Assembly (NCBI RefSeq): GCF_009712035.1
Contig: NZ_VILB01000004.1
Span: 62,001-126,000, forward strand
Length of the DNA: 64,000 nt
Direction: 5' to 3'
From: Anabaena sp. UHCC 0187
Lineage (GTDB): Bacteria > Cyanobacteriota > Cyanobacteriia > Cyanobacteriales > Nostocaceae
A model generated the notes under the pieces. The model was not told the DNA's origin, ran no database searches, and worked only from the letters and a program-made list of their open reading frames with translations. Below, one piece after another: positions 16,193-33,900 of this stretch. The stretch's first letter is position 1. Every line of letters starts with the position of its first letter. A program made the position numbers and the translations under genes.

Positions 16193-17329
16193 ATGGCTCA
16201 AACTGTGATGCAGAATCAAAGAGGTTTAAAAACATTACAGCCACTTGATGTTGAATTGCGTAATGTATTCAAGTTTTTTAACCAAGAACCCGCAGTACAC
16301 GGAGTGGATTTAGATGTTAGACAGGGGGAGTTTTTTAGTATTTTAGGCCCTTCTGGTTGTGGAAAGACAACCACACTTCGTTTAATTGCTGGGTTTGAGA
16401 AGGTTGACGCTGGGAAGTTACTAATTCAAGGTCAGTTAATGACCGATGTTCCTCCTTATCAACGACCTGTGAATACTGTATTTCAAAGTTACGCTTTATT
16501 TAATCATTTGAATGTCTGGGAAAACATTGCTTTTGGACTGCGATTAAAAAAAATATCCAAATCAGAAATTGCTAGTCGAGTTACGGAAGCTTTAAAGCTC
16601 GTAAAAATGGAAAGTTTGCGATCGCGTGTTCCCAGTCAACTATCAGGTGGTCAACAACAACGGGTAGCCTTAGCCAGGGCTTTGGTTAATCGTCCCGCAG
16701 TTATCCTTCTAGATGAACCTTTGGGAGCATTAGATTTGAAACTTCGCAAGGAGATGCAAGTTGAATTATCCAATCTTCACAAAGATTTAGGGTTAACCTT
16801 TGTTATGGTGACACATGATCAGGAAGAAGCACTATGTTTATCTGATCGCATTGCCGTAATGAATCAAGGCAAAATAGAACAAATTGGTACTCCCAGCCAA
16901 ATTTATGACCGTCCCCAAACAACTTTCGTCGCTGATTTTATTGGTGATACCAATCTATTTAGTGGTGAAATTGCGGAAGTAGATGCAGAATGTGTCAAAA
17001 TTTCTACTAAAACTGGATTAACCATTATTGTGAGACGCTGTGAACAAACACCCCTAGAAATATCCCAAAGTGTTGTTGTCAGTGTCCGTCCTGAGAAAAT
17101 TCAACTTTCTCTCTATCAACCTAATATACCAATAAACTGTTTTGAAGGACGATTAATTAATGTCATGTATTTAGGTGCTTATGTTAATTATGTTGTGCAA
17201 TTAATCAACGGTATTAACATCAATGTTTTACAACCTAATACATTCGGTAACTTACCAGACCGGAATACAACTATTTATGCTTGGTGGGAAACAACTGACT
17301 GTTTAGCTATTAGTCAAGATGCAAATTAG
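16193..17329 (+). CDS. potA: Spermidine/putrescine ABC transporter ATPase
   Basis: 378 aa. ATPase domain with Walker [10 protein letters not shown] (about 53-61), signature LSGGQQQR, Walker B VILLDEP and switch His in [12 protein letters not shown]-terminal TOBE-like domain (about 290-375) is typical of PotA/MalK-type subunits. Its stop is directly followed by the potD start. It powers polyamine import through PotB. Confidence 0.92.
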
Positions 17330-18412
17330 ATGACTAACAGACGTAAATTTCTCAAAAAGATGGCGGCTTTTTCTACCTTATCTTTAGGTAGTTGTGGCTG
17401 GCGACTGGCTAATGTAGGGTCTAACTATATTAGCTCTAACCAAAGCGACCAACTATATATTTATACCTGGACGCAATATACAGATAAAGAATTACTAACT
17501 ACCTTTACTACTCAAACGGGGATGAAAGTAATAGCTGATGTATATGAATCCAATGATGTGATGTTGGCTAAGTTGCAAGCTGGAGGTGCTGGTACTTATA
17601 GCATCATCTACCCATCTGACTATATGGTCCAGAAAATGGCAGAAAAAGGTTTATTAACAGAAATAAATCATAGCCGCTTAATTGGCTTAGATAATTTATT
17701 TCCACAATTTAATAATCCTACTTATGACCCTAATAACCGTTATAGTATTCCCTTTAATTGGGGAACAACGGGTTTATTATATAACTCAGAAAAACTGCCA
17801 AATCCACCTGAAGATTGGGAATATCTTTGGCAAAACACAGATAAGCTAAATAAACGCATTACCTTACTCAATGATGTGCGGGAGGTAATGGGGGCAACAT
17901 TGCGGATGTTGGGTTATTCCTATAATTCACAAAATGAAAATGAAGTTAAAGAAGCATATGAGAAATTAAAATTATTAAAACCTGCCATTGCTGCCTTTGA
18001 TACTGATGCTTGGCAAAATAAAATTCTGGCAGGGGATTTATCAATTGCTATGTGTTATTCTGCTGATGCAGTCAAAATTTCTCAAGAAAACCCCAAACTG
18101 AAATTTGTAATTCCTCGCAGTGGTTCTTCATTATGGACTGATACTATTGTCATTCCTAAATCTAATCCTAATATAGCTGGTGCTTATGCCTGGATTAATT
18201 TAATTTTGGAACCAGAAATAGCAGCGAAAATTTCCGAAAGACTATATATTTCTACTCCTAATCGAGCAGGATTTGAACAATTACCAAAGACAATTCAAGA
18301 AAATACTAATTTATTTCCCCCTGAATCAATTTTAGCCAAGTGTGAACGGCTGACTCCTCTGGGAAAATTTGAAGAAGTTTATGACCGCTATTGGACTCAA
18401 TTACTAACTTAA
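17330..18412 (+). CDS. potD: Polyamine-binding protein of the Pot transporter
   Basis: 360 aa. The N-terminus has a twin-arginine signal (N-R-R-K-F-L-K at 3-9) and a possible lipobox LGSC (Cys22), so it is probably exported folded and lipid-anchored. The mature part is a type II periplasmic binding protein (LYIYTWTQYTDKEL near the start), as in PotD. Starts at the base after the potA stop. Confidence 0.9.
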   Translation: MTNRRKFLKKMAAFSTLSLGSCGWRLANVGSNYISSNQSDQLYIYTWTQYTDKELLTTFTTQTGMKVIADVYESNDVMLAKLQAGGAGTYSIIYPSDYMVQKMAEKGLLTEINHSRLIGLDNLFPQFNNPTYDPNNRYSIPFNWGTTGLLYNSEKLPNPPEDWEYLWQNTDKLNKRITLLNDVREVMGATLRMLGYSYNSQNENEVKEAYEKLKLLKPAIAAFDTDAWQNKILAGDLSIAMCYSADAVKISQENPKLKFVIPRSGSSLWTDTIVIPKSNPNIAGAYAWINLILEPEIAAKISERLYISTPNRAGFEQLPKTIQENTNLFPPESILAKCERLTPLGKFEEVYDRYWTQLLT

Positions 18413-18445
18413 AAAAGGGGTAATTGGTAATTAAAAATGAAGATG

Positions 18446-18510
18446 GACGGGCAGGATGCCCACACCACAATAAATATATAACTCTTGTGGGGTTGGCTTC
18501 TAGCCCGCCC
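18446..18510. repeat. Dispersed GGGCA..TGCCC / TTGTGGGGTTGGC repeat
   Basis: GACGGGCAGGATGCCCAC followed by CACAA, then TTGTGGGG and TAGCCCGCCC about 15 bases later, so the whole can fold on itself. A related copy (GCGGGCAAGATGCCCACCCC, then ACAAGAG) lies at 62621-62650. A common type of Nostocales intergenic repeat, here inside the pot operon. Confidence 0.6.
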
Positions 18511-18541
18511 TAGTAAACAATCACCAATCCCTAATTCTTAA

Positions 18542-19432
18542 ATGGAATCTCCTAGCAATCTCAACAAAACAAATAAATTAGCTCATGTCTGGGCAAATTG
18601 GCTACCTCCCTTCGCATTACTAGCACCATCTGGTATTTGGTTATTAATATTGTTAGTTTTGCCAACACTAATAATTTTTGAGTTAAGTTTAGTACCGGAT
18701 ATTCGCCCAGGTGATCTAGTAAATCCTAGTGGTTTTAGTAACTATATTCGCATTTTTGAACCGCTTTATTTAAAAGTTATCTTCAATTCACTTTTCTTGG
18801 CATTTGGTACTACTATTATTACTTTAATTCTAGGTTTTCCTGTTGCCTATTGGATTGCTCAGATCGTGCCAAAGCGGTGGCAAAATTTGTTGGTATTAGC
18901 TTTTGTTTTGCCTTTATGGACTTCTTCTTTATTGCGTTCTTACGCATGGATTACAATTTTACGTCCCACGGGATTATTAAATAGTTTATTAACTTCTGTC
19001 GGTTTACCTACGTTAGATATTCTCAACAGTAATTCAGCGGTATTAATTGGCATGAGTTACAGCTTGTTACCCTACATGGTGTTAATTTTATATGCTTCTT
19101 TAGAAAAGTTAGATAAACAGTTATTAGAAGCTGCTGCTGATTTGGGTGCAAATCCAGTACAAACTTTTTTGAAAGTGACTGTACCCCAAGTTTTACCAGG
19201 AATTGCTGCTGGTTCGCTGCTAGTTTTTATTACTGGATTGGGGGATTTTATAGACCCTGAATTACTTGGTGGTGCGTCGAGTATGACAGCAGCAAGGTTA
19301 GTTTATAACCAGTTTCTGGGTGCTACTCAAAATTGGGGTTTTGGTTCGGCTTTGAGTATGACATTGATTTTAATGGTGAGTATGGCTATCACTCTGGTGA
19401 TTAAATTTGGTGAAGCAACACCGAAAAAATAA
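18542..19432 (+). CDS. potB: Polyamine ABC transporter permease PotB
   Basis: 296 aa, about six membrane helices. The binding-protein-dependent transport signature is visible in EAAADLGANPVQTFLKVTVPQ (split as EAAADLGANP + VQTFLKVTVP). It is the first of the two permeases expected in a PotABCD importer. The usual second permease, PotC, does not follow: the next gene belongs to a different cluster. Confidence 0.9.
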   Translation: MESPSNLNKTNKLAHVWANWLPPFALLAPSGIWLLILLVLPTLIIFELSLVPDIRPGDLVNPSGFSNYIRIFEPLYLKVIFNSLFLAFGTTIITLILGFPVAYWIAQIVPKRWQNLLVLAFVLPLWTSSLLRSYAWITILRPTGLLNSLLTSVGLPTLDILNSNSAVLIGMSYSLLPYMVLILYASLEKLDKQLLEAAADLGANPVQTFLKVTVPQVLPGIAAGSLLVFITGLGDFIDPELLGGASSMTAARLVYNQFLGATQNWGFGSALSMTLILMVSMAITLVIKFGEATPKK

Positions 19433-19483
19433 AAATTATTTGCAATAATTGGAAAATTTGAATTTTATAAATGGAGACGGAGA

Positions 19484-20719
19484 TTGCACAATTTAACTGT
19501 TGAAACTGCATTATCACAGACCAGTATTGAAATTGAGGTACTGCTTTGCTGTGCCAAAACCGTCATAGAATCAGAAACTGCTGATCATATTAGAGAACTT
19601 CTGGCAAAAAATATAAATTGGGATAAATTGATAGAAATAGCGCAACAGCAACGAGTGTTGCCTCTATTGTATTCTAGTCTTTCCAAAAATTTTTCAGAAG
19701 TAGTTCCCAAAGCGATTTTGAGCAAATTACGACTTGATTTTTTAGCTCAAACTCGGCGTAGTTTACTTTTAAGCGGGGAATTGGTACGGCTACTAAATTT
19801 ATTTGCAGAAGAAAAAATATCAGTTCTTCCCTTTAAAGGACCAGTTTTAGCTGCGAGTGCCTATGGCAATTTATCACTACGACAGTTTAGTGATTTAGAT
19901 ATTTTAGTTCACCCCAAAGATGTGGAAAAGGCCAAACAAATTTTCCTGTCTCAGGGGTATAACATGAAAATTGAACGCATCGAAGTTACTCAAGAGCAAA
20001 AAGCTGCATTTGTGCGATCGCAAAGTATTCATAAATTGGTTCGTGAAGCTGCTTATCCTTTTATTCATCCCGAAACAGAATTGGTGGTAGAACTCCACTG
20101 GGGAGTAATGCCAAACTATTTTTCCTTCCCCATTGATTCTGAGGCATTGTGGCAAGATTTAGAGCCAGTTACTATTGCTGGTAAAAGTGTTCCCAATCTT
20201 TCTCCAGAAAATACGCTGTTGATGTTAGCTGGACATGGAACGAAAGACTGTTGGACAAATTTGGCTCGCATTTGTGATGTGGCTGAATTAATTCGCTCTC
20301 ATCCCCAATTAAATTGGCAGAAATTGATGGAGATAGCAAGAATTAAAGGTGGTCAAAGAATCTTATTTTTAGCTTTAACACTAGCGCGAAATATTTTAGG
20401 AACTGCTTTACCTAATGAAGTTTGGCAGAAAATCCAGACAGATCCAAAAGTTAGTTTACTGGCAGTTGAAGTTAGCCAAAATCTGTTCCAAAATACTGAT
20501 GACTCATTGAAAGATGGGAAAGTAACTCGCTTTCATTTGAGTATCAGAGAACGTGTACAAGATAAAATACTTTATTCTTTGCGTTTAGCCACAACGCCAA
20601 CTACTTCGGATTGGTTAGTATTGCCTTTGGTAGAGTTCCCCGCTTTTGTTTACTATTTATTGCGACCAATACGCTTAGTGGGAGGGCAATTGTTAAAAAA
20701 AATTAACCACAATTCCTGA
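19484..20719 (+). CDS. NTP_transf_5-type nucleotidyltransferase family protein (intact active site)
   Basis: 411 aa, TTG start at 19484 after GGAGACGGAG; no ATG is available near the N-terminus. The nucleotidyltransferase core lies around 95-240: FKGP (117-120), R133 and the metal-binding D137-L-D139 (FSDLDILV). It resembles the uncharacterised nucleotidyltransferase family (PF14907 type) found beside PqqD, HprK-like kinases and lasso-peptide genes. It opens the accessory cluster, 214 bp before the PqqD gene. In lasso pathways such enzymes have been linked to modification of the peptide tail; the substrate here is unknown. Confidence 0.85.
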   Translation: MHNLTVETALSQTSIEIEVLLCCAKTVIESETADHIRELLAKNINWDKLIEIAQQQRVLPLLYSSLSKNFSEVVPKAILSKLRLDFLAQTRRSLLLSGELVRLLNLFAEEKISVLPFKGPVLAASAYGNLSLRQFSDLDILVHPKDVEKAKQIFLSQGYNMKIERIEVTQEQKAAFVRSQSIHKLVREAAYPFIHPETELVVELHWGVMPNYFSFPIDSEALWQDLEPVTIAGKSVPNLSPENTLLMLAGHGTKDCWTNLARICDVAELIRSHPQLNWQKLMEIARIKGGQRILFLALTLARNILGTALPNEVWQKIQTDPKVSLLAVEVSQNLFQNTDDSLKDGKVTRFHLSIRERVQDKILYSLRLATTPTTSDWLVLPLVEFPAFVYYLLRPIRLVGGQLLKKINHNS

Positions 20720-20758
20720 TTTTTCCATAGCAATTTTGAACAACAATATCCCTGAATT

Positions 20759-20773
20759 CCCTAGCAATTAGGG
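20759..20773. terminator. Weak hairpin after the first nucleotidyltransferase
   Basis: CCCTA / TAGGG with a 5-base loop, followed by CATTTTAG. It is too short and T-poor for a confident terminator, but the 214-bp gap here suggests that the PqqD gene has its own promoter. Confidence 0.3.
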
Positions 20774-20933
20774 CATTTTAGCATGAGTCAGGAATATACA
20801 AATCAAATTGCTATATTATCTATCTTTAAGAAAATGTAAACTTCTTTATTAAATCTTTAAAAAAGATGTGATCGAATTTACATTATGATTAAATCTGGAT
20901 TAAGCAAACAATCTCATTCCGTTTCAAAGCACA

Positions 20934-21386
20934 ATGAATTTATCTGAAAAATTTAAAATCAATGTCCCAAAGGTTGTCCACGAAATGATTGAGGGTGAAG
21001 TAGTCATCGTCAATCTAGATGGGGGAGAGTATTATAGTTTGGTGACAGTCGGAGCAGATATTTGGGAAAAACTAGCTAGAGGTCTTTCCAGAGGTGAGAT
21101 TTTGGCAGAAATGGTTAGTTGCTACGACAGTAACAGCGAAACAATTGCCACCGCTGTTAACAATTTGATTACAGAATTGCAGCGCGAAAGTTTGATTAGT
21201 ATTGACGCAACAGATTCAGAAAATCAAACGCATACAAATAATGATGATCTGCCAACTCAAGCTATAGAAAAGCTGAAATTTGAACCACCAACTTTAAACA
21301 AATATACAGACATGGAAGAATTGCTGGCTTTAGATCCTATCCATGATGTAGAGCCAGAAATGGGTTGGCCAAGTGCTAAGGTCTAA
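20934..21386 (+). CDS. PqqD-like (RRE) protein with leader-like C-terminal tail
   Basis: 150 aa. Residues 8-90 are a PqqD/RiPP-recognition-element domain (VVIVNLDGGEYYSL; ADIWEKLARGLSRGEI; NNLITELQRESLI). A polar linker (91-112) leads to an extension: F116-E-P-P119-T-L121-N-K-Y124, M127, then LALDPIHDVEPEMGWP and a last SAKV. The 116-127 segment matches the lasso leader pattern Y-x-x-P-x-L, which PqqD/RRE domains bind, with Phe for Tyr and Thr for the usual Gly. The tail may therefore be a substrate or a self-binding arm. The HprK-like kinase gene follows 80 bp downstream. No separate precursor gene is seen nearby. Confidence 0.88.
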   Translation: MNLSEKFKINVPKVVHEMIEGEVVIVNLDGGEYYSLVTVGADIWEKLARGLSRGEILAEMVSCYDSNSETIATAVNNLITELQRESLISIDATDSENQTHTNNDDLPTQAIEKLKFEPPTLNKYTDMEELLALDPIHDVEPEMGWPSAKV

Positions 21387-21409
21387 ATTAGTAAATAGCA
21401 TTTGTATAG

Positions 21410-21435
21410 GTTGGGTTGAGATCACAAAACCCAAC
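21410..21435. repeat. Hairpin repeat between the PqqD and kinase genes
   Basis: GTTGGGTT / AACCCAAC, an 8-bp perfect stem with a 10-base loop. It resembles a dispersed cyanobacterial repeat. Without a T run it is not a clear terminator, but it could lower or separate expression of the downstream genes. Confidence 0.5.
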
Positions 21436-21466
21436 ATGATCAGGGTAAAAATACCAATAAAACAAA

Positions 21467-22555
21467 ATGATTAAAACTGATATTGAAGAATCAGAAAATT
21501 CAATTCAAACAGAGCAAAAAGACCCAATTGCTTTTTTTAATTCAATTTATAAACTATACGAAAAAGCGGAAGCATCTGTAGGGGGTGCGGTTAATCGGTT
21601 TTATAATATTGGTGGGTTTAAAATTCAGTTGCGGTTTGCAGGTTCGGCTTTAATTCCTTATCAAACTCCGGCTTTAGGACATTTAGAAATTGAGCCTGTT
21701 GTTAATCCCGATTTAACAGTTTGTTTGTGGGATAGCACCTCAACCAATACTATTATGCCTCCTCCACCTTGGGGGAGAAATCATCATCATCCCAAGCGCG
21801 GAGAAATTCACGGATTTAATACTGATCGCATTCATACGAGTTTTCAATGGGGTGCATTTGCATTGAGTCTGTTGGATAGCGATCGCAATTTAGGTATTTA
21901 TTGGGTAGATACAACGGAACAAATTCCCTATTGGGAAACAGGTTCACCATTAAGGACAATTTTAAATGTCTGGATGAGTAAACGGGGAATACAACTGGTT
22001 CATGGTGGTGCTGTGGGACTCCCTAGCGGGGGTGTGTTGTTGGTAGGAAAGGGAGGATCTGGAAAATCAACAACGGCTTTAACCTGTATTAATTCAGAGC
22101 TTTTTTATGCCAGTGACGATTACAGTTTGATTACCTGTGAACCAACACCAACAGTTTTTAGTATTTACAACACAGGCAAAAAAAATGCCGATGATGTAAA
22201 TAGATTACCATTTTTGGCTGAAGCTATCAGTAATAGCGATCGCTTGGATTCAGAAAAAGCCGTTTATTTTATTAACGAGCATTTTCCTGAAAAAATATTG
22301 AAAAGTTGTCCCATTCGTGCAGTTTTAGTTCCGCGTATTACGGGAAAAACAGATACTTCTTTAACAGCTACTTCTGCTGCTGCTGCTTTAGCTTCACTCG
22401 TACCAAGTACGATGATTCAATTAGCGGGTGCAGGGAAAGAAGCTTGTCAAATAATGATGCAAGTCTTGAAACAAGTTCCTTGTTATTATTTAGAACTGGG
22501 GACTGATTTAGAGCAAATTCCTCAAGTGATTTTTAATCTGCTTACAAAACAATAG
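21467..22555 (+). CDS. HprK-like serine kinase
   Basis: 362 aa. The C-terminal half is an HPr kinase-like P-loop domain: VHGGAV (178-183), Walker A G194-K-G-G-S-G-K-S-T202, acidic pair D217-D218 (YASDDYS). The N-terminal half (about 40-160) is unlike canonical HprK and matches HprK-related kinases found beside PqqD genes. In lasso-peptide clusters such kinases phosphorylate a C-terminal Ser of the peptide. Here the likely target is the PqqD tail, which ends GWPSAKV; this is inference. GT2 gene 1 starts 3 bp after the stop. Confidence 0.88.
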   Translation: MIKTDIEESENSIQTEQKDPIAFFNSIYKLYEKAEASVGGAVNRFYNIGGFKIQLRFAGSALIPYQTPALGHLEIEPVVNPDLTVCLWDSTSTNTIMPPPPWGRNHHHPKRGEIHGFNTDRIHTSFQWGAFALSLLDSDRNLGIYWVDTTEQIPYWETGSPLRTILNVWMSKRGIQLVHGGAVGLPSGGVLLVGKGGSGKSTTALTCINSELFYASDDYSLITCEPTPTVFSIYNTGKKNADDVNRLPFLAEAISNSDRLDSEKAVYFINEHFPEKILKSCPIRAVLVPRITGKTDTSLTATSAAAALASLVPSTMIQLAGAGKEACQIMMQVLKQVPCYYLELGTDLEQIPQVIFNLLTKQ

Positions 22556-22558
22556 AAA

Positions 22559-23311
22559 ATGGAAAATCAGAAATTATTTATTAGCGTTATTATCCCAGTT
22601 TACAACGGAGAAAAATATCTAGCTGAAGCCATTGAAAATGTCAAAAATCAGGATTATCAACCATTAGAAATTATTGTCATTGATGATGGTTCTACAGATA
22701 AAACTGGGGAAGTTGCTGCCGAATTTAAAGATAATATCCGCTATATTTATCAGGAAAATAGTGGTCCATCTGCGGCAAGAAACCGTGGGATAAAGATGGC
22801 AAAAGGTGATGTAATTGCTTTTTTGGATGTTGACGATCTTTGGTCGGATGATAAACTGCAACTACAAACAAATTACTTAGTAGAGAATCCGTTGATAGAT
22901 ATTGTTCAAGGGTTAATTCAACAAATGAATTTATCACAACTAACATCTGCGGAAAAACCTACTTTTGAACCTGTCTATAAACCTTACAACTATATTAATT
23001 TAGGAAGTGCAATTTATCGAAAATCAGTATTTGAGAAAATTGGTTATTTTGACGAAACTCTCAACTATGCTGAAGATGTTGATTGGTTTGTCAGAGCCTG
23101 GGAAAATGGTATACCTAAACTTCTTATAGATCAGGTAATGCTATTTTATCGAAAGCATCAAAAAAATATGACCGGGGGTAAAAATTTAGTTGAACTGGGA
23201 TTCATCAAAATATACAAAAAACGTTTAGATAGAATCCGAAAAAAAGAACTATCTCCAACCAATTTTTTATTAGATATGCCAATTAATGAATACATTGGTA
23301 ATCCTCCTTAA
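22559..23311 (+). CDS. GT2 family glycosyltransferase, copy 1
   Basis: 250 aa GT-A fold enzyme: ISVIIPVYNGEKYL near the start, VIDDGSTD (about 40-47), SGPSAARNRGI, and the metal-binding FLDVDDLW. No membrane segments, so a soluble transferase using a nucleotide sugar. It lies 3 bp after the kinase gene and is a paralogue of the next gene. Confidence 0.92.
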   Translation: MENQKLFISVIIPVYNGEKYLAEAIENVKNQDYQPLEIIVIDDGSTDKTGEVAAEFKDNIRYIYQENSGPSAARNRGIKMAKGDVIAFLDVDDLWSDDKLQLQTNYLVENPLIDIVQGLIQQMNLSQLTSAEKPTFEPVYKPYNYINLGSAIYRKSVFEKIGYFDETLNYAEDVDWFVRAWENGIPKLLIDQVMLFYRKHQKNMTGGKNLVELGFIKIYKKRLDRIRKKELSPTNFLLDMPINEYIGNPP

Positions 23312-23371
23312 ATTCAACTGCTAAAAGATTATGAAACAATCAATTGAACGTAAAGAAAATCAAAAATAAGT

Positions 23372-24061
23372 ATGAAAAATAATCCTTTAATCAGCGTCAT
23401 TATTCCCGTTTACAATTGTGAAAAATATCTATCCCAAGCCATCGAAAGTGTACTAGCTCAAACCTATCAACCCCTAGAAATTATCGTCATAGATGATGGT
23501 TCAACTGATGCTAGTGCAGAAATAGCCAAGGGATTTGGTTCTGCGGTGCAATATTGTTGTCAAGTCAACAGTGGTACTGCTGCGGCTCGTAATCGCGGCA
23601 TAGAATTAGCCAAAGGTGATTTTTTTGCCTTTCTTGATGCAGATGACCTTTGGGTAGATGATAAATTAACGCGCCAAATGCTAACGTTTATAAATAACCC
23701 CAATCTTGATGTTGTATTCGGACAAGTTGAACAGTTTATTAGTCCAGAATTGGCAGAAAATCTCAAAGCCAAACTGTACGTCCCTAATAAGTTAATGCCG
23801 GGACATATTCCTTCAGCACTGCTGATAAAAAAGGACTCCTTTTTTCGGGTTGGTTTATTTGAAACTCATTGGAAATTAGCCGAATTTGCTAGTTGGCAAG
23901 TGCGTCTTACAGAGATAGGACTCCAAACAATGATGTTACCCGATTTAGTAGCAAAGCGAAGACTACATGAAACCAATAAAGGAATTCAGAAAAAACAATA
24001 TCAAACTGAATATATTCAGATTCTCAAAGCATCACTAGATCGCCGACGCGCTAAGAGTTAG
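23372..24061 (+). CDS. GT2 family glycosyltransferase, copy 2
   Basis: 229 aa, with the same motifs as copy 1 (SVIIPVYNCEKYL, VIDDGSTD, GTAAARNRGI, FLDADDLW). Its second half differs (PGHIPSALLIKK), which suggests a different acceptor. Located 60 bp after copy 1 and 13 bp before the SDR gene. Confidence 0.92.
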   Translation: MKNNPLISVIIPVYNCEKYLSQAIESVLAQTYQPLEIIVIDDGSTDASAEIAKGFGSAVQYCCQVNSGTAAARNRGIELAKGDFFAFLDADDLWVDDKLTRQMLTFINNPNLDVVFGQVEQFISPELAENLKAKLYVPNKLMPGHIPSALLIKKDSFFRVGLFETHWKLAEFASWQVRLTEIGLQTMMLPDLVAKRRLHETNKGIQKKQYQTEYIQILKASLDRRRAKS

Positions 24062-24074
24062 GATATTCAAGATT

Positions 24075-24968
24075 ATGATAAAGACTAAGCTAAACAACAT
24101 TAAAACTCGTTTCAAAGCCGCATTACAAGCCTTCCTTGACCCAGTTCCTACTCTCAAACCAAAAGTCTTTGTCAAAATAGTAGAGCCTTCAGTAGTTTTA
24201 GATAATCAGCTTTTAGCTGGAAAAAATGTCCTAATTACCGGAGCGGCAAAAAATATTGGCAGAAGTATCGCTATTGAAATGGCTAAACAAGGTGCAAATA
24301 TTTTCTTTACCGATATCCATGAGGAAGGATGTTTAAACTTAGAAAAAGAATTAAATACCTATGCAGTTAAGGTAAGAGGCTTTGTTTCAGACATATCAAA
24401 ACCTGAAGATATTGATTATTTATATAGCATTTTGGAAGAAAACAAAATCATAATTGATATTCTTGTCAATAATGTAGGCATTCAATTTGAAACAATGGGA
24501 ATCAATAACTTAGATTTAGGAGAATGGCATCAAACTTTTCAAACTAATATATTTGGTCCTATGTATCTCACTAAACTTATCTCTAAAATGATGGTGAATA
24601 ATTCTATTCAGGGTTCTATTATTTTTATGACTTCTATCCACCAAGAAACCGTTGTTCGTTGGCCTAGTTATAGTTCTTCAAAAGCAGCATTAGGCATGAT
24701 TATCAAGGAATTAGCAGTAGACTTAGCCGCAGACAAAATAAGAGTCAATGGAATTGCTCCCGCTTGGGTAGCAGAAGATGAGCAAAAACAACCATTGAAT
24801 ATTAAGTATAGCCTGTTGCATGGTTGTAGTATCTCTCCTTGTTATATAGGTAGAGCGGCTGTTTATTTAGCCTCAGATTACTTTTCAAAATTTACGACGG
24901 GAACAGTTCTTAAAATTGATGGTGGCACAACATTATATAATTATCGTGTTGCTCAAAATCCACTTTAA
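24075..24968 (+). CDS. Short-chain dehydrogenase/reductase
   Basis: 297 aa. A 45-residue N-terminal extension precedes a classical SDR: cofactor motif T55-G-A-A-K-N-I-G62, NNVG (132-135), catalytic S187 and Y199-S-S-S-K203. The acidic residue after the second strand (FFTDIH) points to NAD rather than NADP. It oxidises or reduces an alcohol or ketone; the substrate may be a sugar or the modified peptide of this cluster, but nothing in the sequence shows which. Confidence 0.9.
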   Translation: MIKTKLNNIKTRFKAALQAFLDPVPTLKPKVFVKIVEPSVVLDNQLLAGKNVLITGAAKNIGRSIAIEMAKQGANIFFTDIHEEGCLNLEKELNTYAVKVRGFVSDISKPEDIDYLYSILEENKIIIDILVNNVGIQFETMGINNLDLGEWHQTFQTNIFGPMYLTKLISKMMVNNSIQGSIIFMTSIHQETVVRWPSYSSSKAALGMIIKELAVDLAADKIRVNGIAPAWVAEDEQKQPLNIKYSLLHGCSISPCYIGRAAVYLASDYFSKFTTGTVLKIDGGTTLYNYRVAQNPL

Positions 24969-25001
24969 TAAAAAACTATTTATGGTCTTTTTCTAAACAT
25001 A

Positions 25002-25946
25002 ATGTTTCATTTTATTCAACGAATTAATAGAAAAATAAAACGAATAGCTGCAATTTTGCCCAAAAAATTAGCATCAGGTAGATTAGAGGCAAAATCTCCA
25101 ACATTTAAAACCCTCTTTCCTAAAAATGCGAAAATTGAGCGCGTAGCTACAGGATTTAAATTTACAGAAGGCCCGATTTGGTTTTGTGAAGAAAAATATC
25201 TGCTATTTAGCGATATTCCTGCTAATAAAATATATAAGCTTAACCCTAATGGTCAATTAAGAATATTTAGAGAACCTAGCCATAATTCTAACGGTTTAAC
25301 TAAAGATAAACAAGAACGATTGATTGCTTGTGAACACGGCACACGTCGAGTTACTCGCACAGAAAAAGATGGCTCAATTACTATTTTAGCTGATACATTT
25401 CAAGGGAAAAAATTTAATAGTCCTAATGATGTTGTTGTTAAAAGTGACGGGTTTATTTATTTTACAGATCCACCTTATGGTATCAAACCCGAACAACAGG
25501 AGCAACCAATTCAAGGAGTATATCAAATTTCACCAGATAACAATGAAATTATTATTGTTGCTGATGATTTTATCAAACCAAATGGTTTAGCATTTTCACC
25601 TGATGAAAAAAAGCTGTATATAGATGATTCAGAACGTCGTCATATCCGAGTTTTCGATGTTCAACCTGATGGAAAACTTACCAATGGACGGATTTTTTAT
25701 GATATGAAAGTCGAAAAACCCGGTTTACCAGATGGAATGAAAGTAGACACACAAGGAAACATTTACTGCACAGGTGGTGGTGGTGTGTGGGTATTCAATC
25801 CTGAAGGTAATCATTTAGGAACAATTGTCACTCCAGAAGTACCTGCAAATTGTGCTTGGGGAGATGAAGATTACCAAAGTCTTTATATTACAGCTTCTAC
25901 CTCTGTTTACAAAATTAGAGTTAATATTCCAGGTGTCAAAATATGA
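25002..25946 (+). CDS. SMP-30/gluconolactonase-family hydrolase
   Basis: 314 aa, six-bladed propeller of the SMP-30/gluconolactonase/LRE family. Metal ligands of the family are visible: E56 (FTEGPIW), N142 (SPNDVVV), N194 (KPNGLAFSP) and D208/D209 (YIDDSE). Such enzymes open lactones. The N-terminus is basic and not a clear signal peptide. The next gene starts inside its stop (ATGA), so the two are coupled. Confidence 0.9.
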   Translation: MFHFIQRINRKIKRIAAILPKKLASGRLEAKSPTFKTLFPKNAKIERVATGFKFTEGPIWFCEEKYLLFSDIPANKIYKLNPNGQLRIFREPSHNSNGLTKDKQERLIACEHGTRRVTRTEKDGSITILADTFQGKKFNSPNDVVVKSDGFIYFTDPPYGIKPEQQEQPIQGVYQISPDNNEIIIVADDFIKPNGLAFSPDEKKLYIDDSERRHIRVFDVQPDGKLTNGRIFYDMKVEKPGLPDGMKVDTQGNIYCTGGGGVWVFNPEGNHLGTIVTPEVPANCAWGDEDYQSLYITASTSVYKIRVNIPGVKI

Positions 25947-27070
25947 TCATGAATAAGCAAGAAAAATCTGGACTTTCCCATGAGAAAATATGGCTTTTGC
26001 AAGCAGCATTATTGTCAGATAAAACGGGTTTAAATTCCTGGCAACAATGGAGAGAAACCGTTGATATTGAAAATATAGATACTGAATCTTATCGCTTATT
26101 ACCTTTACTTTATCGGAATTTATCTGCACAAGAAGTGATAGATGTGCATATAGCCAGACTCAAGGGAGTTTACCGACGGACTTGGGTAGAAAACCAAGTT
26201 CTATTTCAAGTGATTACTCCCATTTTAAAATCTTTTCAAGACAAAGGAATTAAATCTTTATTGCTTAAAGATGCAGCGTTAAATCTTCATTATTACTGCG
26301 ATAATGGATTACGAATGATTTCTAATTTAGAACTGTTGATTCAGCCATCAGATGCTTTAATAGGGATTAATTTATTGCAGAATCTTGGTTGGCAAGTAAC
26401 AGGAAAAGTACCTCAAGAAATTCTTCCATTTTCCCAAGCGATAGGATTTAAAAACAGTTCCAATCAATCTTTTATTTTGCGGTGGCATTTATTCGCAGAT
26501 GGGTTTGCAGAAAAAGCCGAACATGATTTCTGGAAAAATACAATAATTACTCAATTGGGGGAATTATCAATACATATTTTAAATCCAACAGATCAATTAT
26601 TGTATATTTGTGGGGCTTTGAAAAATCAGGTGATCTCAAGTAATAGACTAGCTGATGCGGCAATTATTATCAATACTTCAGAAAATCAAATTGACTGGAA
26701 GCAATTAATTATCAAAGCTCAAGAATACCGCTTGGTTTTAGTGCTAAAAAATATGATCACAGCTTTACAGGAAATTTTAAATATTTCTATACCGTCTTCG
26801 ATTTTGACAGAGATAATGAACTTATCAATTTCCCGCTTTGAAGATCGTGAATATCAGATTATGACTCAGGAGAATAATAGCGTATTAGATCGTTTGAATC
26901 TAAGATACTACCAATATGCAAGAATGGTATCTGATGAAAATGGGAAATCAAATTTTTTAGGATTTACTCAATATTTACAATATCTTTGGGGTTTAGAAAA
27001 TTTGTGGCAAGTTCCTTACCATGCAACGATTAAAGGTATAAAAAGGCTAGTAGAAAAGGCTGAATCATAA
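25943..27070 (+). CDS. NTP_transf_5-type family protein with degenerate active site
   Basis: 375 aa, same family and layout as the gene at 19484. The catalytic signature is altered: FKGP becomes LLKDA (107-111), and the metal-binding Asp-Leu-Asp becomes N128-L-E130 (ISNLELLIQP), while R124 is kept. It is probably not an active transferase and may be a binding or scaffold partner for the intact copy. It closes the cluster, overlapping the SMP-30 gene by four bases and facing pixL tail to tail. Confidence 0.82.
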   Translation: MIMNKQEKSGLSHEKIWLLQAALLSDKTGLNSWQQWRETVDIENIDTESYRLLPLLYRNLSAQEVIDVHIARLKGVYRRTWVENQVLFQVITPILKSFQDKGIKSLLLKDAALNLHYYCDNGLRMISNLELLIQPSDALIGINLLQNLGWQVTGKVPQEILPFSQAIGFKNSSNQSFILRWHLFADGFAEKAEHDFWKNTIITQLGELSIHILNPTDQLLYICGALKNQVISSNRLADAAIIINTSENQIDWKQLIIKAQEYRLVLVLKNMITALQEILNISIPSSILTEIMNLSISRFEDREYQIMTQENNSVLDRLNLRYYQYARMVSDENGKSNFLGFTQYLQYLWGLENLWQVPYHATIKGIKRLVEKAES

Positions 27071-27115: not shown

Positions 27116-30100
27116 TTACTTACCTGCTGTTATTAAACCCTGATTTAAATCTTCCTTATTTCTATTAACCAAACTATTAACAGTAGAGAGAAACTCATGC
27201 TCCAAATAAGGCTTAGTTAAATAATAATTTGCCCCTAATTCATAAGCTAACTGACGATGTTTCTCCGCGCTGCGAGAAGTGAGAACCACAACTGGTTTTT
27301 TAGCAATATCTGGGTTTTGACGGATATGGCTTAATAATTCAAATCCGTTCATCCTTGGCATCTCTAAATCAGAGATAATTACTTCAATTTCTGGATGTAA
27401 TTGCAATTGTTCTAAAGCCTCTACACCATTTTGCGCTTGTAATACTTGATAGCCAGATTTTTGCAAAGTCAGAGAGAGAGTTTGCCGCAGACTAATAGCA
27501 TCATCTACCACTAAAATTACTTTTGGTAATTTGCTATTTCCTGACACATTAGCAGTTAGCTGTTTTTGGCTATTAGTTGCGGGAGTAGATGTAGTAATTA
27601 GAGGTGTAGAGGCAATTGCCTCTTCTGACATTGGCAAAGCTTGTTGAGTTGATGGGGGTGTCATGGGTAGCTTCATGACATCCAATGTGGCTTGCATTTC
27701 CTTAGTATCAATCAACAGAGTGCCATCAATAATTAAGATCAAGTTACCATTAGCTAAACTGCTACAACCGTAAACATATTTTGGTGGAGTAATGGAACTG
27801 CCTAAAGGTCTAATTACTAATTCTTGTTCCCCAATAATTTGGTCAACTTCTACTCCCACCATTCCCTGATTACGACGGAGTAAAATGATGGGATTTTTCA
27901 ACATTCCTGCTTCTGAATTATCGGGTAAATTTTGCAGATTATTTGTACTTAGAACTGCACCATTGTAATACATTAAATTTTCTAATTTTTGCAGATTTAC
28001 CATCAATTCATCGTCATCTGTATGCCAATGTAAAAATTGTTTGCCTTCAAATTCTTTGATTTGTTGAGCAGAGGGAATAACTATTTTTTCAATACTATCT
28101 TGTAGTAAAGCATAAATAACACCACCTGCCTGAACTAACATGAGTTTATCTGTAGTCATAGAAAAAGGAATTTTGAGGATAAATGTTGTTCCCTGATGAG
28201 GAGATGATTGCACAGAAATTGAGCCATTCAGTGATTGCATTTGGGTACGCACAATATCTAAACCCATACCCCGTCCAGAGATTTCACTGACTTTACCGGC
28301 TGTAGAAAATCCCGGAGCAAACATCATTTCTATCAGTTCAGACTCGCTGAGATGATGAACATAATCTTTACTATTATCATCGGGAATCAGATTCAGTTCT
28401 ATGGCTCTACTGCGAACCTTTTCTAAGTTTAAACCTTGTCCATCATCATGGATTTCAATAACAGTTTGACTACCTTGATTATAGGCACGAATTTCAATAA
28501 TACCTTGTGCAGATTTACCTCTTTCATGACGAATTTCTGGAAGTTCAATCCCATGATCAAAAGAATTACGTACCAGTTGTAATAGAGGATCATACAGCTT
28601 TTCCGCGATCGCTTTATCAACTAGAACCTGTGTACCAGTAAGCTTTAATTCTACCTGTTTTCCATAAACATTGGCTAAATTCTGCACCATTTGGGGAAAG
28701 CGACTCAGAATAGTTCCTAAAGGTAACATTCTCGCTTCTACCAAGTTATCTATAATATTTAGGGTTAAAGTCTGTTTTTTCTCACTGATTTGAGCAGCTT
28801 GTCTCATCAATAATTCCAGAGATTCAGAAGTTTCTTGGATTTGCAAAGTTTCTTCCATTGCTGAGTGCAATGTTAATTGAAACTCTGAATATACATCCAT
28901 TTCCAAAGAATCAAAATTTACTGTACTGACTGCTTGGGTGTTGTGAGATGTGACATGATTCCCTTGTAATGGTAAATCACGTAATTGATATAAAGTAAGT
29001 TGGTGTTGGTTAAGTTGCTGACTTAATCTATCAATTAATTCTACAATTTGATCATCGTATAAAGTCCGTCTTTTTTGGTAAATTAGTAATTCACCTGTGA
29101 GGTAATTCAGCCTTTGTAGTCCTTCAACATCTACCCGCACAAAGGAAGCTTGACGGGAACTTCTATTCACAGCATCAGTAGTTTTTTCTTCTACTTGCTG
29201 ATTAATATTTGGAGTATCATCTGCTGTGATTACCTCTTCACTGACTGCTGATGATGTGACACTTTCTAAATAACTATTATTTTTAACAGCTTCTCCTGTT
29301 TCTACAATTGGTATTGCGACTATTTCATCATCAGCATCTAAGATAACGTCCCCTCCCCATATTGATTCTAGAAGATTATTATTATCTTCAATTAACAAGG
29401 AAGGAACTATTTCTTTGATCACTAACAAATCCTGTAACTTAGGATGATCAAGCCAGTTTTTTTCAGCCTCAGTCACTGGTGGGTAATTTTTATATTTTTT
29501 ACCTAATTCACGGATTTGCTGTCTTAAGTTTTTTATAATGGGGATAGCACTATTATAGTGTTCAACAGTATATTGGAATTTGGCAATTGCTAGAAGAATA
29601 ATTAAAATGACACCACGACGATAAAGACATAAAGCTTGGTTATCTCCTTCATTTTCTATAAAGTAAAGAAATTGTTGTAGCCAATCTTCTAAATAATTTA
29701 CGGGATATTTTTGAGTAAGTGGAGGAATTAATAAAGATAGATTCAGTTCTAATTCTGGTATTTCTTTGTAGTGGTTAAACCAGCCAAAAATATAGCGAAT
29801 TACTTTTAAATAAAACTTGGCATGAACTGGTTTTAAAGGTTCATGATTACCATTACTAAGTGTAATTAGAAACTGATAGAATTCAGTGGTAATATTAAAA
29901 AATCTCTCAGCATAAGATTTATCTATAGATGTAATTGCCGACTCATGTTTTGGTATTCTTGCCAAAGAACTGGTTGTTGTGACAGAAGACGAATAATCAT
30001 CGTTGACATTTACCAGCGCTTGCAATTCTAGAGATGGTGAGCCTCCAGAGGTACGATCTCCTTCTAAAACAGCTATTTGTGCGGCTTTTAAATCAGTAAA

Positions 30101-30790
30101 AGCGATTTTTGCAATTTCTAATATATTTTGGGGATTTGCATCTACAGCCGCCATAATTGTGCGTGCTAGTGATTGCAATCCTGGGAGATTTAAAGATTCT
30201 GCCAAACCGATAAATACTTCACTTTGAGAATGTAATAATTCACAAAACTCAGGATTATTTGGTGGATGACTAAGAGCTTGACTCAGAATATCTAGACGTT
30301 GTTTTACTCCAACTTCAAAAATAGATTTAACAATATCAAATCCCAACTCTTCCGATGTCGGAATATGGGTTTCAGTCCCAAAAGCATCCCCTAACTTTTC
30401 TTGAATTTGGGCAAATGCTGTAGTAGCTCGATTTAAAAGCCCGTCAGCATTAATATTACTGTTGGTAAGTTCGGCTGTAACTGCTAATTGCAAACATTCA
30501 TAACCTTCTACAAGCATAGCTTGTAATTCACCATCAATAACTACATTGGGATTATATAAAGCCTTAAATATATCTTCTAAAGAATGGGCAATTGTCATGA
30601 TGGTATCGAGTCCAACATTGGCTGCTCCACCCTTAATTGTGTGTGTTGCCCGCATTAAATTATGTACTTTAGCTGTACTAGAACTTTCAACTAAAGTAAA
30701 TAAATCTTGTTCAATAGTTTGTAACAATTCTGGTGCTTCACCCAGGAAATAGGCATAGCCTTGTTCACGAATTGCTGGATCTGTAATCAT
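27116..30790 (-). CDS. pixL: PixL: CheA-type hybrid histidine kinase of phototaxis
   Basis: 1224 aa. Hpt domain with phosphorylated H50 (RATHTIKGGAANVGL), a long middle region (about 135-560), dimerisation helices, the CheA ATPase domain (VRNSFDHGIE, HDDGQGLN, PGFSTAGKVSEISGRGMGLD), a CheW-like domain and a C-terminal receiver (VILVVDDAIS, phosphoacceptor in IISDLEMP, Lys in YLTKPY). Last gene of the minus-strand pix operon; it receives the signal from PixJ through PixI and should phosphorylate PixG and PixH. This is the positive-phototaxis kinase in Synechocystis (PixL/TaxAY1). Confidence 0.93.
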   Translation of the reverse strand: MITDPAIREQGYAYFLGEAPELLQTIEQDLFTLVESSSTAKVHNLMRATHTIKGGAANVGLDTIMTIAHSLEDIFKALYNPNVVIDGELQAMLVEGYECLQLAVTAELTNSNINADGLLNRATTAFAQIQEKLGDAFGTETHIPTSEELGFDIVKSIFEVGVKQRLDILSQALSHPPNNPEFCELLHSQSEVFIGLAESLNLPGLQSLARTIMAAVDANPQNILEIAKIAFTDLKAAQIAVLEGDRTSGGSPSLELQALVNVNDDYSSSVTTTSSLARIPKHESAITSIDKSYAERFFNITTEFYQFLITLSNGNHEPLKPVHAKFYLKVIRYIFGWFNHYKEIPELELNLSLLIPPLTQKYPVNYLEDWLQQFLYFIENEGDNQALCLYRRGVILIILLAIAKFQYTVEHYNSAIPIIKNLRQQIRELGKKYKNYPPVTEAEKNWLDHPKLQDLLVIKEIVPSLLIEDNNNLLESIWGGDVILDADDEIVAIPIVETGEAVKNNSYLESVTSSAVSEEVITADDTPNINQQVEEKTTDAVNRSSRQASFVRVDVEGLQRLNYLTGELLIYQKRRTLYDDQIVELIDRLSQQLNQHQLTLYQLRDLPLQGNHVTSHNTQAVSTVNFDSLEMDVYSEFQLTLHSAMEETLQIQETSESLELLMRQAAQISEKKQTLTLNIIDNLVEARMLPLGTILSRFPQMVQNLANVYGKQVELKLTGTQVLVDKAIAEKLYDPLLQLVRNSFDHGIELPEIRHERGKSAQGIIEIRAYNQGSQTVIEIHDDGQGLNLEKVRSRAIELNLIPDDNSKDYVHHLSESELIEMMFAPGFSTAGKVSEISGRGMGLDIVRTQMQSLNGSISVQSSPHQGTTFILKIPFSMTTDKLMLVQAGGVIYALLQDSIEKIVIPSAQQIKEFEGKQFLHWHTDDDELMVNLQKLENLMYYNGAVLSTNNLQNLPDNSEAGMLKNPIILLRRNQGMVGVEVDQIIGEQELVIRPLGSSITPPKYVYGCSSLANGNLILIIDGTLLIDTKEMQATLDVMKLPMTPPSTQQALPMSEEAIASTPLITTSTPATNSQKQLTANVSGNSKLPKVILVVDDAISLRQTLSLTLQKSGYQVLQAQNGVEALEQLQLHPEIEVIISDLEMPRMNGFELLSHIRQNPDIAKKPVVVLTSRSAEKHRQLAYELGANYYLTKPYLEHEFLSTVNSLVNRNKEDLNQGLITAGK

Positions 30791-30929: not shown

Positions 30930-33900
30930 TTACTTGACTTTAAACTTACTAGCAGTTGCTAATAAATCCTGTGCCATTCCGGTTAAGCTTTGGAAGACAT
31001 GGGCAATTTCTTGAGATTCTCCAAAGGTTTTGTTAGCAATTTCAGCCACATCATTCATGGATTTAGTAACTGTACCAGATTGCTGCATTTGGATTTGGGT
31101 GGCTTCAGTAATGCGTTCAATTAATTGACTAATTTCCGCAGTAGCTGAAACGATAGCATTAAGGTTTTGGCGAGTTTCATTAACTAAGTTTGTTCCTTCG
31201 ACAACTTGCTGAATCCCTGTTTCCATTGCCACTGCAACTTCCCCAGTTTCTGCTTGAATCTCCTGAACTAATTTTTCAATTTCGATGGTTGCTGATGCTG
31301 ACTGACGAGATAAAGACCGCACTTCATCAGCTACCACTGCAAAGCCTTTACCATATTCACCAGCCCTAGTGGCTTCAATAGCCGCATTCAAAGCCAGAAC
31401 GTTGGTTTGAGTCGCAAAGCTACTAATCAAATTTACCACTTTGGAGATTTTTTGAGATGACTCACTCAGCCGTTTAATCTTTTTGCTGGTTTGAGCTACG
31501 GTTTCTCGAATGGCTTGAATAGCATTGACTGTTTCATTCATAGCGGTATCGCCAGAATCTACAGTTTTGTTGGCTTGTTGAACAGCTATCTGCACTAATT
31601 GGGCGTTGTTAACTACCCCTTGGGTAGAGTTTACCATCTGTTGCAAATCACTCAAAGCCTTAGTGATTTCGTCAGATTGTTGTTTAGCTAAACCAGTCAA
31701 TCCTACTAGGGAGGTACTGCTGTTAGTAGAGGTTTCGGCTACTTTTTGGGAAGATGACTGTACCTGAATAACGATTTGCTGTAGTGCTTTGAGAGTCCCG
31801 TTATAAGCATCAGCAATTGTTCCTATTTCGTCCTCTGTAATGGGAGCGCGGACTGTTAAATCTCCTTTGAGAGCAGGGCTGACAGCCATGAGCAGTTGAA
31901 TGGAACGTTGTTGGAGTAGTTCTTTAGCTGCTTTTTCTCTAGTTGCTGCGTCTGATAGTTTGGCGGATTGGGTTTGTAGTTGTTGCAAGAATTCTGTTTG
32001 TTGCAAAGCTAATCCTAATTGATCACCAATCCGCGCTAACAAGTTGGTTTCTGACTCTTGCCAATGACGGGTACTAGAGTTTTGATAAACCGCCAATAAT
32101 CCCCAAAGTTTTTCCCCAAATAGGATGGGGACAATTGCATAGGCTTTGGCTTCAAACCCTTCGAGGATTTCAATGTAGCAAGTATCAAAGCTGGCTTGAT
32201 AAATGTCACTGACTATTAATTTTTGACCTTTCTTATAATCACCGCCGTTCATTGCTTGTAAACAGGGGTCATCAAAGGCGGTTTTATGTTCAGGTGTAAC
32301 TAGTTTTATCCAACCTGTAGCGACTGATTCAGCGACAAAGTGACCACCCCAATCAGATGTGAATTTATAGACAGCGGTGCGATCACATTTGAATAGTTGG
32401 CGGATATCCTGAGTTGTGGATTTGAAAATTTCCTCAATTCCTGAAGTTAAGGATTGACGAATTTGGTTAACTATCTTGGAGAAAGTTTTTTCCTGTTCAA
32501 GTATTTGAGCGATTTTTGCAGATTGCTGCTTTAATCTATCTAAATAATCAACTTGGGATTTAGCCAGGCTAAATTGTAACCCGATTTGAATTAAAAAGTT
32601 GACTTCTGAAGGTTGCCATTCACGGGGTGCAGAATTTTGATAAGCTGCTAATAAGCCCCATAATTTTTCTTCAAAGAAGATTGGCACGATCATGTAGGCT
32701 TTAGCTTCAATCTGTTCTAAAATTTCCACGTGACATTGAGCATGGCCGACTTGGTAGATGTCATTCACAACAAAGGTTTCACCCTTAGCATATCTACCAC
32801 CTTGGGTTTCTTGCAGGTGGGTATCTGGCCACACCATTTGGAATTCTGGTGTAACTATTTTTGTCCAACCACTAGCCACTGATTCAGCGATAAATATACC
32901 ACTCCAATCAGGGTGAAATTGATAGACTCCGACGCGATCGCATTTTAACGCTTGACGAATTTCTTGAGTGGTGTTTCTGAAGATTTCTTCTACATTTGTC
33001 GCTTGTCTAATCCGGTTAACAATTTTATTAACCGCTTTTTCTTGTTCGACTAATTTAGCTAATTCTTCTGATTGATCCTGTACTTTTTGCACAAAATCAA
33101 CTTGTGATTTTGCTAGGCTAAATTGCAAGCCAATTTGATTCAAAAAGTTAACTTCTGAGGTTTTCCATTCACGAACACCAGTATTTTGATACGCTGCTAA
33201 CAAACCCCATAATTTATCACCAAAGATAATAGGGACAATCACATAAGCTTTGGCTTCAAATTGTTCCAATATCTGAATATGGCAATCAGCCAACCCTATG
33301 GCATAGGTGTCATTGACAACAAAGGTTTCGCCCTTGGCATATCTACCACCTTTAGTGTCCTGTAAGTAAGTATCGTCCAAAACCGTTTTGATATTTGGTC
33401 CGACTAATTGCGTCCAACCCACACCTACTGACTCGTAGACAAATTCACCACCCCAGTCTGGTTTAAATTGATAGACTGCGACACGATCACATTGCAGAGC
33501 CTGGCGAATTTCTTGGGTAGTTGTTTTGAATATTTCTTCTACATCTAAGGATTGACGAATGCGGTTAACAATCCTATTGATGGCTTTTTCCTGTTCAGCC
33601 GCTCGTGCTAATTTTTGTACATAATCTATTTGGGTTTTAGCCTGGCTAAATTGCAAACTGACTTGAGATAAAAAGCTAACTTCTGAAGGTTGCCATTCAC
33701 GAGGTTCAAAGTTTTGATAAGCTGCCAATAAACCCCACAATTGATCCTCAAAGAAAATCGGCACATTGATATAGGCTTTGGCTTCAAACTGCTCTAATAA
33801 TTCCAAGTAGCAAGGGGTAATATTTGCTGTGTAGATATCATTGACTGCAATGGTTTCCCCTTTAGCAAACCGCGCTCCTTTGGTTTCTTGAAAATAAGTA

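Follow-up and report, generated by a model that had tools for sequence, protein, structure and literature searches.

A PqqD-like recognition domain with a conserved, partly leader-like tail encoded beside lasso-type tailoring enzymes in Anabaena sp. UHCC 0187

Here, we describe a gene from Anabaena sp. UHCC 0187 that encodes a ribosomally synthesized and post-translationally modified peptide (RiPP) recognition element (RRE) of the PqqD type joined to a conserved C-terminal tail. The gene lies within the window, the 64,000-nucleotide stretch of contig NZ_VILB01000004.1 (assembly GCF_009712035.1, positions 62,001 to 126,000 of the forward strand) that was analyzed. The tail is a module fused to the RRE at every locus checked, except for one transposon-split gene; it is linked to a kinase, as shown by co-occurrence and one gene fusion; and the tailed locus is not a lasso system, with neither a B2 protease nor a separate lasso-type precursor found beside the tailed gene at the loci tested. 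Our favored, although still tentative, reading is that the protein is a self-liganded adaptor, an RRE protein that draws in lasso-type tailoring enzymes through its invariant motif, rather than a RiPP precursor that is consumed.

An earlier note on this DNA had described a PqqD/RRE protein with a C-terminal tail at this place, and the domain, residues 116-127, and the neighboring genes were all found as it described. The protein is divided as follows.

20934..21386, + strand: PqqD/RRE protein with conserved C-terminal tail, 150 amino acids (open reading frame (ORF), Pfam, homologs, and tail profile)
20997..21197, + strand: PqqD (RRE) domain, residues 22-88 (Pfam PF05402, 47.6 bits, cut-off 23.4)
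21204..21272, + strand: variable linker, residues 91-113 (conservation and model)
21273..21326, + strand: lasso-leader-like stretch, residues 114-131, LKFEPPTLNKYTDMEELL (leader profile and model)
21303..21380, + strand: motif shared by two phyla, residues 124-149, Y-x-D-...-L-L-x-x-D-P-I-H-[DE]-V-...-G-W-...-K (conservation)

The domain scores above its curated cut-off and has the RRE fold, which places the protein in the PqqD/RRE family, and its closest solved structures are lasso B1 proteins with the leader bound (5v1v, 5v1u, and 6jx3). Following the domain and linker, the C-terminal tail reads LKFEPPTLNKYTDMEELLALDPIHDVEPEMGWPSAKV, in which residues 116-127 are FEPPTLNKYTDM, followed by EELLALDPIHDVEPEMGWPSAKV. 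A search of the 5.1-Mb genome for other copies of the protein gave no match better than E 0.5.

Conservation by region was compared in 36 tailed proteins, consisting of 14 from the window's branch and 22 others (20 from family f31 and two from the Bacillota). The window's branch comprises tailed proteins of the window's class, including those of Anabaena and Crinalium, whose hosts are presumably photosynthetic, and f31, a family with small genomes, is probably a gut lineage. Identity between the groups was 0.22 for the PqqD domain, 0.09 for the linker, 0.07 for leader-like residues 114-123, and 0.51 for residues 124-149, which carry the motif [YF]xDxxELLxxDPIH[ED]V...GW..K common to cyanobacteria and Bacillota. 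Across a set of 64 distinct proteins, D134, P135, and W145 are never replaced, H137, G144, D126, and L131 are each present in 63, and K149 is present in 59, with the caveat that the residue counts from both the 36- and the 64-protein sets are biased by the selecting pattern, which demands D, P or A, H or M, and G/P-W. One protein (L091) was added to the conservation set by hand, and two tailed proteins that fall outside the selecting pattern (L147 and L149) also have D-P-[IL]-H-D-V and GWP. The PqqD residues G31 and Y33 are kept in 36/36 tailed proteins. When compared with the Anabaena relatives, the ratio of synonymous to nonsynonymous changed codons was 8:1 in the tail and 4:6 and 4:9 in the linker (Fisher test for tail versus linker, p 0.057 and 0.011). 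The tail is more conserved than the linker by both measures, a comparison that the earlier note had proposed as a check. The codon pattern, together with the conservation of the tail in distant phyla (a near-identical DPVHDVEPEMGWP occurs in a protein of 29% identity from an Oscillospiraceae metagenome-assembled genome (MAG)), rules out that the tail is a chance feature or a frame artifact.

The same comparison bears on whether the tail is a substrate. No Ser, Thr, or Tyr in the tail is invariant among the 64 distinct proteins: Ser or Thr occupies position 147 in 12 and position 125 in 43, and Tyr occupies position 124 in 55. Since the tail has no invariant hydroxyl residue, Ser147, which had been put forward as the acceptor, was ruled out as a site of modification shared by all family members. 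Neither does the segment following the leader-like part behave as the short RiPP core that had been proposed, as it is the most conserved part of the protein (n = 64) and not a variable cargo with a conserved modification site. Modification of the tail in some form is possible. Autocleavage at the invariant D134-P135 bond, in line with known Asp-Pro chemistry, was considered, and no evidence for it was found.

The first part of the tail was compared with a profile of 17 leaders taken from 14 lasso loci of the sampled cyanobacteria, which reads roughly K-x-Y-x-x-P-x-L-x-x-Y-G-x-V-E-x-L-T. The best whole-protein fit to the profile was the tail, in the expected register, for 13 of the 14 proteins in the window's branch. 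With the columns of the profile permuted, the mean fit of ten representatives was reached by 0 of 2000 profiles across 25 offsets, and the score of the window protein itself by 2 of 2000. When run as a standard hmmsearch, the unpermuted profile could not tell the tail from background (3.6 bits, with four background ORFs scoring higher), so the resemblance is short and visible only as a register-fixed, family-wide signal. The conserved Gly and Thr of the leader are replaced in the window tail (T125 and L131). These results support that the first part of the tail resembles a lasso leader beyond chance in the window's branch. The earlier claim that the tail is a RiPP leader stands to that extent; it does not carry over to the other groups or to hmmsearch. 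An AlphaFold model of the window protein, built on a 4-sequence alignment, places a confident RRE beside a leader-like stretch (residues 114-131) of fair confidence in one model of five. The model has a strand at residues 121-124 and a helix at 127-131, is disordered from residue 135, and has a predicted local distance difference test (pLDDT) score below 50 at linker residues 94-110. Structural matches to 8vpo and 5wgg extend over the model as far as residue 131 or 130, end points from which we infer nothing.

The closest named relatives of the window protein are from Anabaena, with 91% and 87% identity. The homolog from the Oscillospiraceae MAG (goat colon), in which DPVHDVEPEMGWP is shared almost letter for letter, adjoins an NTP_transf_5 protein, a kinase, and two GT2 glycosyltransferases, and the tailed protein occurs in 2 of 148 genomes of that family, the MAG included. 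When searched with a tail-only profile, 28 of 386 cyanobacterial genomes had a total of 31 strong places, where every frame was also matched by a PqqD-containing profile; two strong places were found in 398 genomes of the Oscillospiraceae phylum, and 45 in 388 genomes of the window's order, a sample that overlaps the first cyanobacterial one by seven tailed genomes and in which G954 and G1209 repeat the Crinalium sequence and an Anabaena sequence. Thirty-two loci of the window's order were examined, and PqqD was present in 31; at the remaining one (L141:6977-8649, minus strand, genome G1123) an ISL3-family transposase lies between the PqqD part and the tail, which is left in a frame of 49 amino acids. 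The rest of the 45 places consist of eight known from the first sample and five outside the examined set (frames of 151-187 amino acids in G1187, G1164, G1028, and G1087 and the second place of G1050). No free-standing tail peptide was found among the strong matches examined, the transposon-split frame being the sole short one; weak matches with E >1e-3 (six in the cyanobacterial and four in the Oscillospiraceae-phylum search) fall outside this assessment. A further match of 21 amino acids (E 1e-5) sits at a contig edge (G1010:C68). The earlier view that the recognition domain is fused to the tail is upheld at all loci checked but the split gene. Among plasmids, one tailed record was found, from Crinalium, with a cluster annotated as PqqD, nucleotidyltransferase, HPr kinase, FkbM methyltransferase, two glycosyltransferases, oxidoreductase, SMP-30, TPR, and nucleotidyltransferase. 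Viral contigs contained no relative of the tailed protein, and PADLOC and PHROGs gave no match for it.

In the window, the PqqD gene is the second of eight genes that lie on the same strand; the other seven, in order, are listed below.

19484..20719, + strand: NTP_transf_5 nucleotidyltransferase (Pfam, 223 bits, cut-off 31.2), upstream of the PqqD gene
21467..22555, + strand: HprK-like kinase (Hpr_kinase_C, PF07475, 20.1 bits, below the cut-off of 33.3), downstream of the PqqD gene
22559..23311, + strand: GT2 glycosyltransferase (Pfam)
23372..24061, + strand: GT2 glycosyltransferase (Pfam)
24075..24968, + strand: short-chain dehydrogenase that recurs in related clusters (Pfam, neighborhood comparison)
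25002..25946, + strand: SMP-30/gluconolactonase-like protein that recurs in related clusters (Pfam, neighborhood comparison)
25943..27070, + strand: second NTP_transf_5 nucleotidyltransferase (Pfam, 84 bits, cut-off 31.2)

A kinase was found in 31 of 33 tailed neighborhoods (24 plus nine), GT2s in 32, and an NTP_transf_5 protein in 29. In 44 chosen genomes, which do not amount to 44 independent trials because they are related, the kinase was present in 8/8 tailed and 0/36 tail-less genomes, nine of the latter from the window's genus. The glycosyltransferase set varies between tailed loci and the tail stays fixed. At one locus (L053:8170-10119, minus strand) PqqD, tail, and HprK-like kinase are fused in a single frame of 649 amino acids; the tail is internal there and is not necessarily the C-terminal, releasable peptide that the earlier note had envisaged. 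By eye, a second PqqD-like stretch lies between the tail and the kinase of this fusion; of the two PqqD parts, Pfam detects the first alone. In addition, seven kinases of the f31/Bacillota group (∼490-515 amino acids) carry their own PqqD domain at the C terminus, and the stretch after it lacks DPIH and resembles a degenerate tail.

L049:9778-11307, kinase with C-terminal PqqD
L050:8397-9941, the same
L051:8370-9899, the same
L055:1357-2847, the same
L057:9994-11505, the same
L058:8296-9804, the same
L059:9488-10951, the same

The window kinase contains the motifs VHGGAVG, GKST, and ASDD, which we assign to the H, K, and DD residues of the motif in PMC9266682. These residues are retained in the aligned kinases of tailed loci, with ED in the Oscillospiraceae MAG. 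A profile of 13 tailed-locus kinases scored 37, 27, and 24 bits on lasso-cluster proteins of Priestia, Azospirillum, and Butyrivibrio (13 proteins searched), and a profile of eight kinases matched solved HPr kinases at E 0.005-0.024. Based on the H-K-D-D residues and the likeness to lasso-cluster kinases, the kinase belongs with the lasso tailoring kinases of the PadeK type. The nucleotidyltransferases of tailed loci are likewise related to those in the Azospirillum and Butyrivibrio lasso clusters. The latter, on a Butyrivibrio plasmid (L115, 6526-15135), is a lasso cluster with two NTP_transf_5 relatives, a GT2, a B2, and an unannotated kinase relative, and is a lasso counterpart of the same tailoring set.

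Lasso machinery was distributed differently. B2 (PF13471) scored above cut-off in 16/16 tail-less genomes tested, in 15 of which it lies beside a PqqD (the exception is G047). Above-cut-off B2s were found in 2 of 33 tailed genomes (G125 and G197), and weak ones, below cut-off, in G198 and G359, in each case on a different contig from the tailed gene. G197 carries both kinds of PqqD, and the tail-less one adjoins B2. The window genome gave no B2 match at E 0.001, and no asparagine-synthetase-like cyclase (C) was found among the ten proteins scanned at 17330-27070, the remaining genome not having been searched. Small ORFs with a lasso-type leader were found at 0 of 23 tailed loci and at 15 of 19 lasso loci, the latter count being partly circular because 14 of the 19 supplied the leader profile. 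Outside the coding sequences of the 18.5-27.2 kb region, the window has just two ORFs of at least 25 amino acids, neither of them leader-like, so the operon leaves no space for a separate precursor. This agrees with the earlier remark that no separate precursor gene is to be seen, within the scope of loci and not of whole genomes. Against the lasso PqqD chaperone model NF033536, the window PqqD scored 48.7 bits, below the cut-off of 80.

Comparison with characterized systems helps to define what is unusual here. Lasso leaders are bound by B1 proteins homologous to the window PqqD (from the titles of 5v1v and 6jx3), and PadeB1 binds its leader with a Kd of ∼5 nM, according to PMC5067487. In contrast to lasso B1s such as TbiB1 and PadeB1, the window protein bears the leader-like stretch and the invariant motif in cis and has no B2 beside it, and whereas all 18 aligned PqqDs beside B2 end within eight residues of the domain, it continues into the tail. 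The existence of homologs lacking the tail, which the earlier note held would count against it, is confirmed by these 18; however, they belong to another system, with B2 adjacent and, mostly, a separate precursor. According to PMC9266682, PsmK adds phosphate to the Ser at the C terminus of a lasso peptide, whose hexosylation depends on PsmN, the involvement of a host glycosyltransferase not being excluded. The window's HprK-like kinase, with H, K, and DD, and its NTP_transf_5 resemble PadeK of paeninodin and PsmK/PsmN of pseudomycoidin, a likeness that rests on relatives in annotated lasso clusters and not on the PadeK or PsmN sequences, but those enzymes act on a separate precursor that is afterwards cyclized by B2 and C. 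The kinase also shows a weak likeness to the NCBIfam HprK-related kinase A/B systems (TIGR04352 and TIGR04355; 18-20 bits, far below the 200-bit cut-offs). At E 0.01 the window PqqD matches four families, none of which is what we take to be the PqqD partner model of these systems. Borosins are precursor-enzyme fusions, in which a substrate-like segment is joined to a biosynthetic protein; their fused partner is a modifying enzyme, whereas that of the window protein is a recognition domain. No prior description of the tailed arrangement was found in the open-licence literature (titles and beginnings of abstracts). The parts of the system are of known kinds, and what appears new is the arrangement, in which an RRE bears both a leader-like stretch and an invariant motif in cis alongside lasso-type tailoring enzymes and no lasso.

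Because the RRE and the leader-like part both diverge strongly between groups, whereas the motif does not, we place the leader-like part in the protein's own RRE. In the adaptor that we favor, residues 114-131 would fold back into the groove of the RRE in cis, as a lasso leader does in trans, and the docked leader would fix the invariant motif (residues ∼124-149, D-P-I-H-[DE]-V...G-W...K) as a docking platform. The motif, invariant and disordered in the model, would be read by the kinase, which would in turn bring in the nucleotidyltransferase and glycosyltransferases, and the target of these enzymes could be the tail itself or another acceptor or glycan. An adaptor is preferred over a consumed precursor because the "core" is invariable, lacks an invariant hydroxyl acceptor, and can sit inside a larger protein. 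Several observations weigh against the adaptor. The leader fit is in register for just 2 of 22 proteins outside the window's branch and fails for L054 within it; the single confident AlphaFold model rests on a shallow alignment, and that of a Bacillota homolog is poor (mean pLDDT 39.6); no kinase was found in two of the 33 neighborhoods (L147, 18 kb, and L148, where a contig end limits the neighborhood to 10 kb), and three others (L042, L047, and L052) have it at a distance of 4.5-4.9 kb; and the 44-genome co-occurrence counts are not independent. An adaptor also leaves the invariance of D134, P135, and W145 unexplained.

An amended form of the model in the earlier note, in which the leader docks in cis and the kinase, nucleotidyltransferase, and glycosyltransferases phosphorylate and glycosylate the invariant tail as a fixed acceptor, released or not, is unlikely in our estimation but a serious alternative. 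It was retained because no other substrate was found, and it would suit the 23 tailed loci without a lasso-type precursor, the constancy of the tail as the glycosyltransferases vary, and the modification of a lasso peptide by PsmK/PsmN (PMC9266682), given that the window kinase and nucleotidyltransferase are relatives of lasso-cluster proteins. However, the hydroxyl counts above and the internal tail of L053 speak against it, as does the fact that only D134, P135, and W145 are invariant. We know of no chemistry of such enzymes that uses these three residues. Nor was a protease or exporter conspicuous in the labeled neighborhoods, although no systematic search for them was made. We consider it rather improbable that the locus is a precursor-less, RiPP-like priming system, in which the RRE with its leader in cis would present D-P-I-H-[DE]-V...G-W...K as an invariant acceptor, the lasso-type kinase and nucleotidyltransferase would start a protein-bound glycan on it, and the varying glycosyltransferases would extend it. 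There is a slim chance that the tail is an autoinhibitory mimic, which fills the groove until a precursor unlike those of lasso peptides, encoded elsewhere in the genome, displaces it. The fair confidence with which the leader-like stretch was modeled and the binding of genuine lasso leaders by B1 homologs (titles of 5v1v and 6jx3; PMC5067487 for PadeB1) would fit such a role, yet the strongest conservation lies in the motif that follows the leader-like part, and no lasso-like small ORF was found in the 23 tailed neighborhoods, whole genomes not having been searched for precursors. Least credible to us is a relict RRE in an ordinary surface-glycan locus, with the tail as a short stability or localization motif: the neighbors do include GT2s, FkbM methyltransferases, sulfotransferase-like proteins, ABC transporters, and nucleotide-sugar enzymes, but the tailed PqqD co-occurs with one kinase family, is fused to that kinase in L053, and has kept G31 and Y33 throughout.

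The origin of the tail was addressed with a tree of 61 PqqD domains (86 columns, tail omitted). The 36 tailed rows require two changes on this tree; lasso B1s group with two of the three tailed G268 rows (97/95), and the f31/Bacillota rows and kinase-borne PqqDs lie apart. This weakly suggests that the tail is either ancient and was lost when lasso B1s arose or was gained twice, and the tree is unable to date it because of its 86 columns and the long branches of L053, L032, and L054. As tail-less lasso B1s fall among tailed proteins, the split lasso arrangement of B1 plus precursor may derive from a fused protein, or the reverse.

RiPP clusters are commonly flagged by the presence of an RRE domain, and numerous discrete PqqD-like RREs occur without lasso enzymes. 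The RRE-Finder study (PMC7470986) regards such RREs as possible false positives or members of uncharacterized RiPP classes. The tailed family provides a testable identity for one such group, with a leader-like and invariant tail, a fixed kinase partner, and members in two phyla. If the leader does occupy its own RRE, one small protein could serve to study leader recognition in cis and would offer a route to the role of lasso-type kinases and NTP_transf_5 enzymes without a lasso peptide.

Other genes of the window flank the cluster. Immediately upstream (16193-19432) are potA-, potD-, and potB-like spermidine/putrescine transporter genes, of which 16193-17329 was called potA by eye; the best potC-like match is on a different contig (G000:C56:137284-138021, in the window's genome). 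Downstream, a CheA-like hybrid kinase (by eye, 27116-30790) adjoins a protein of 1467 amino acids (30930-35333, minus strand) that by eye consists of many GAF-like repeats followed by a methyl-accepting chemotaxis end.
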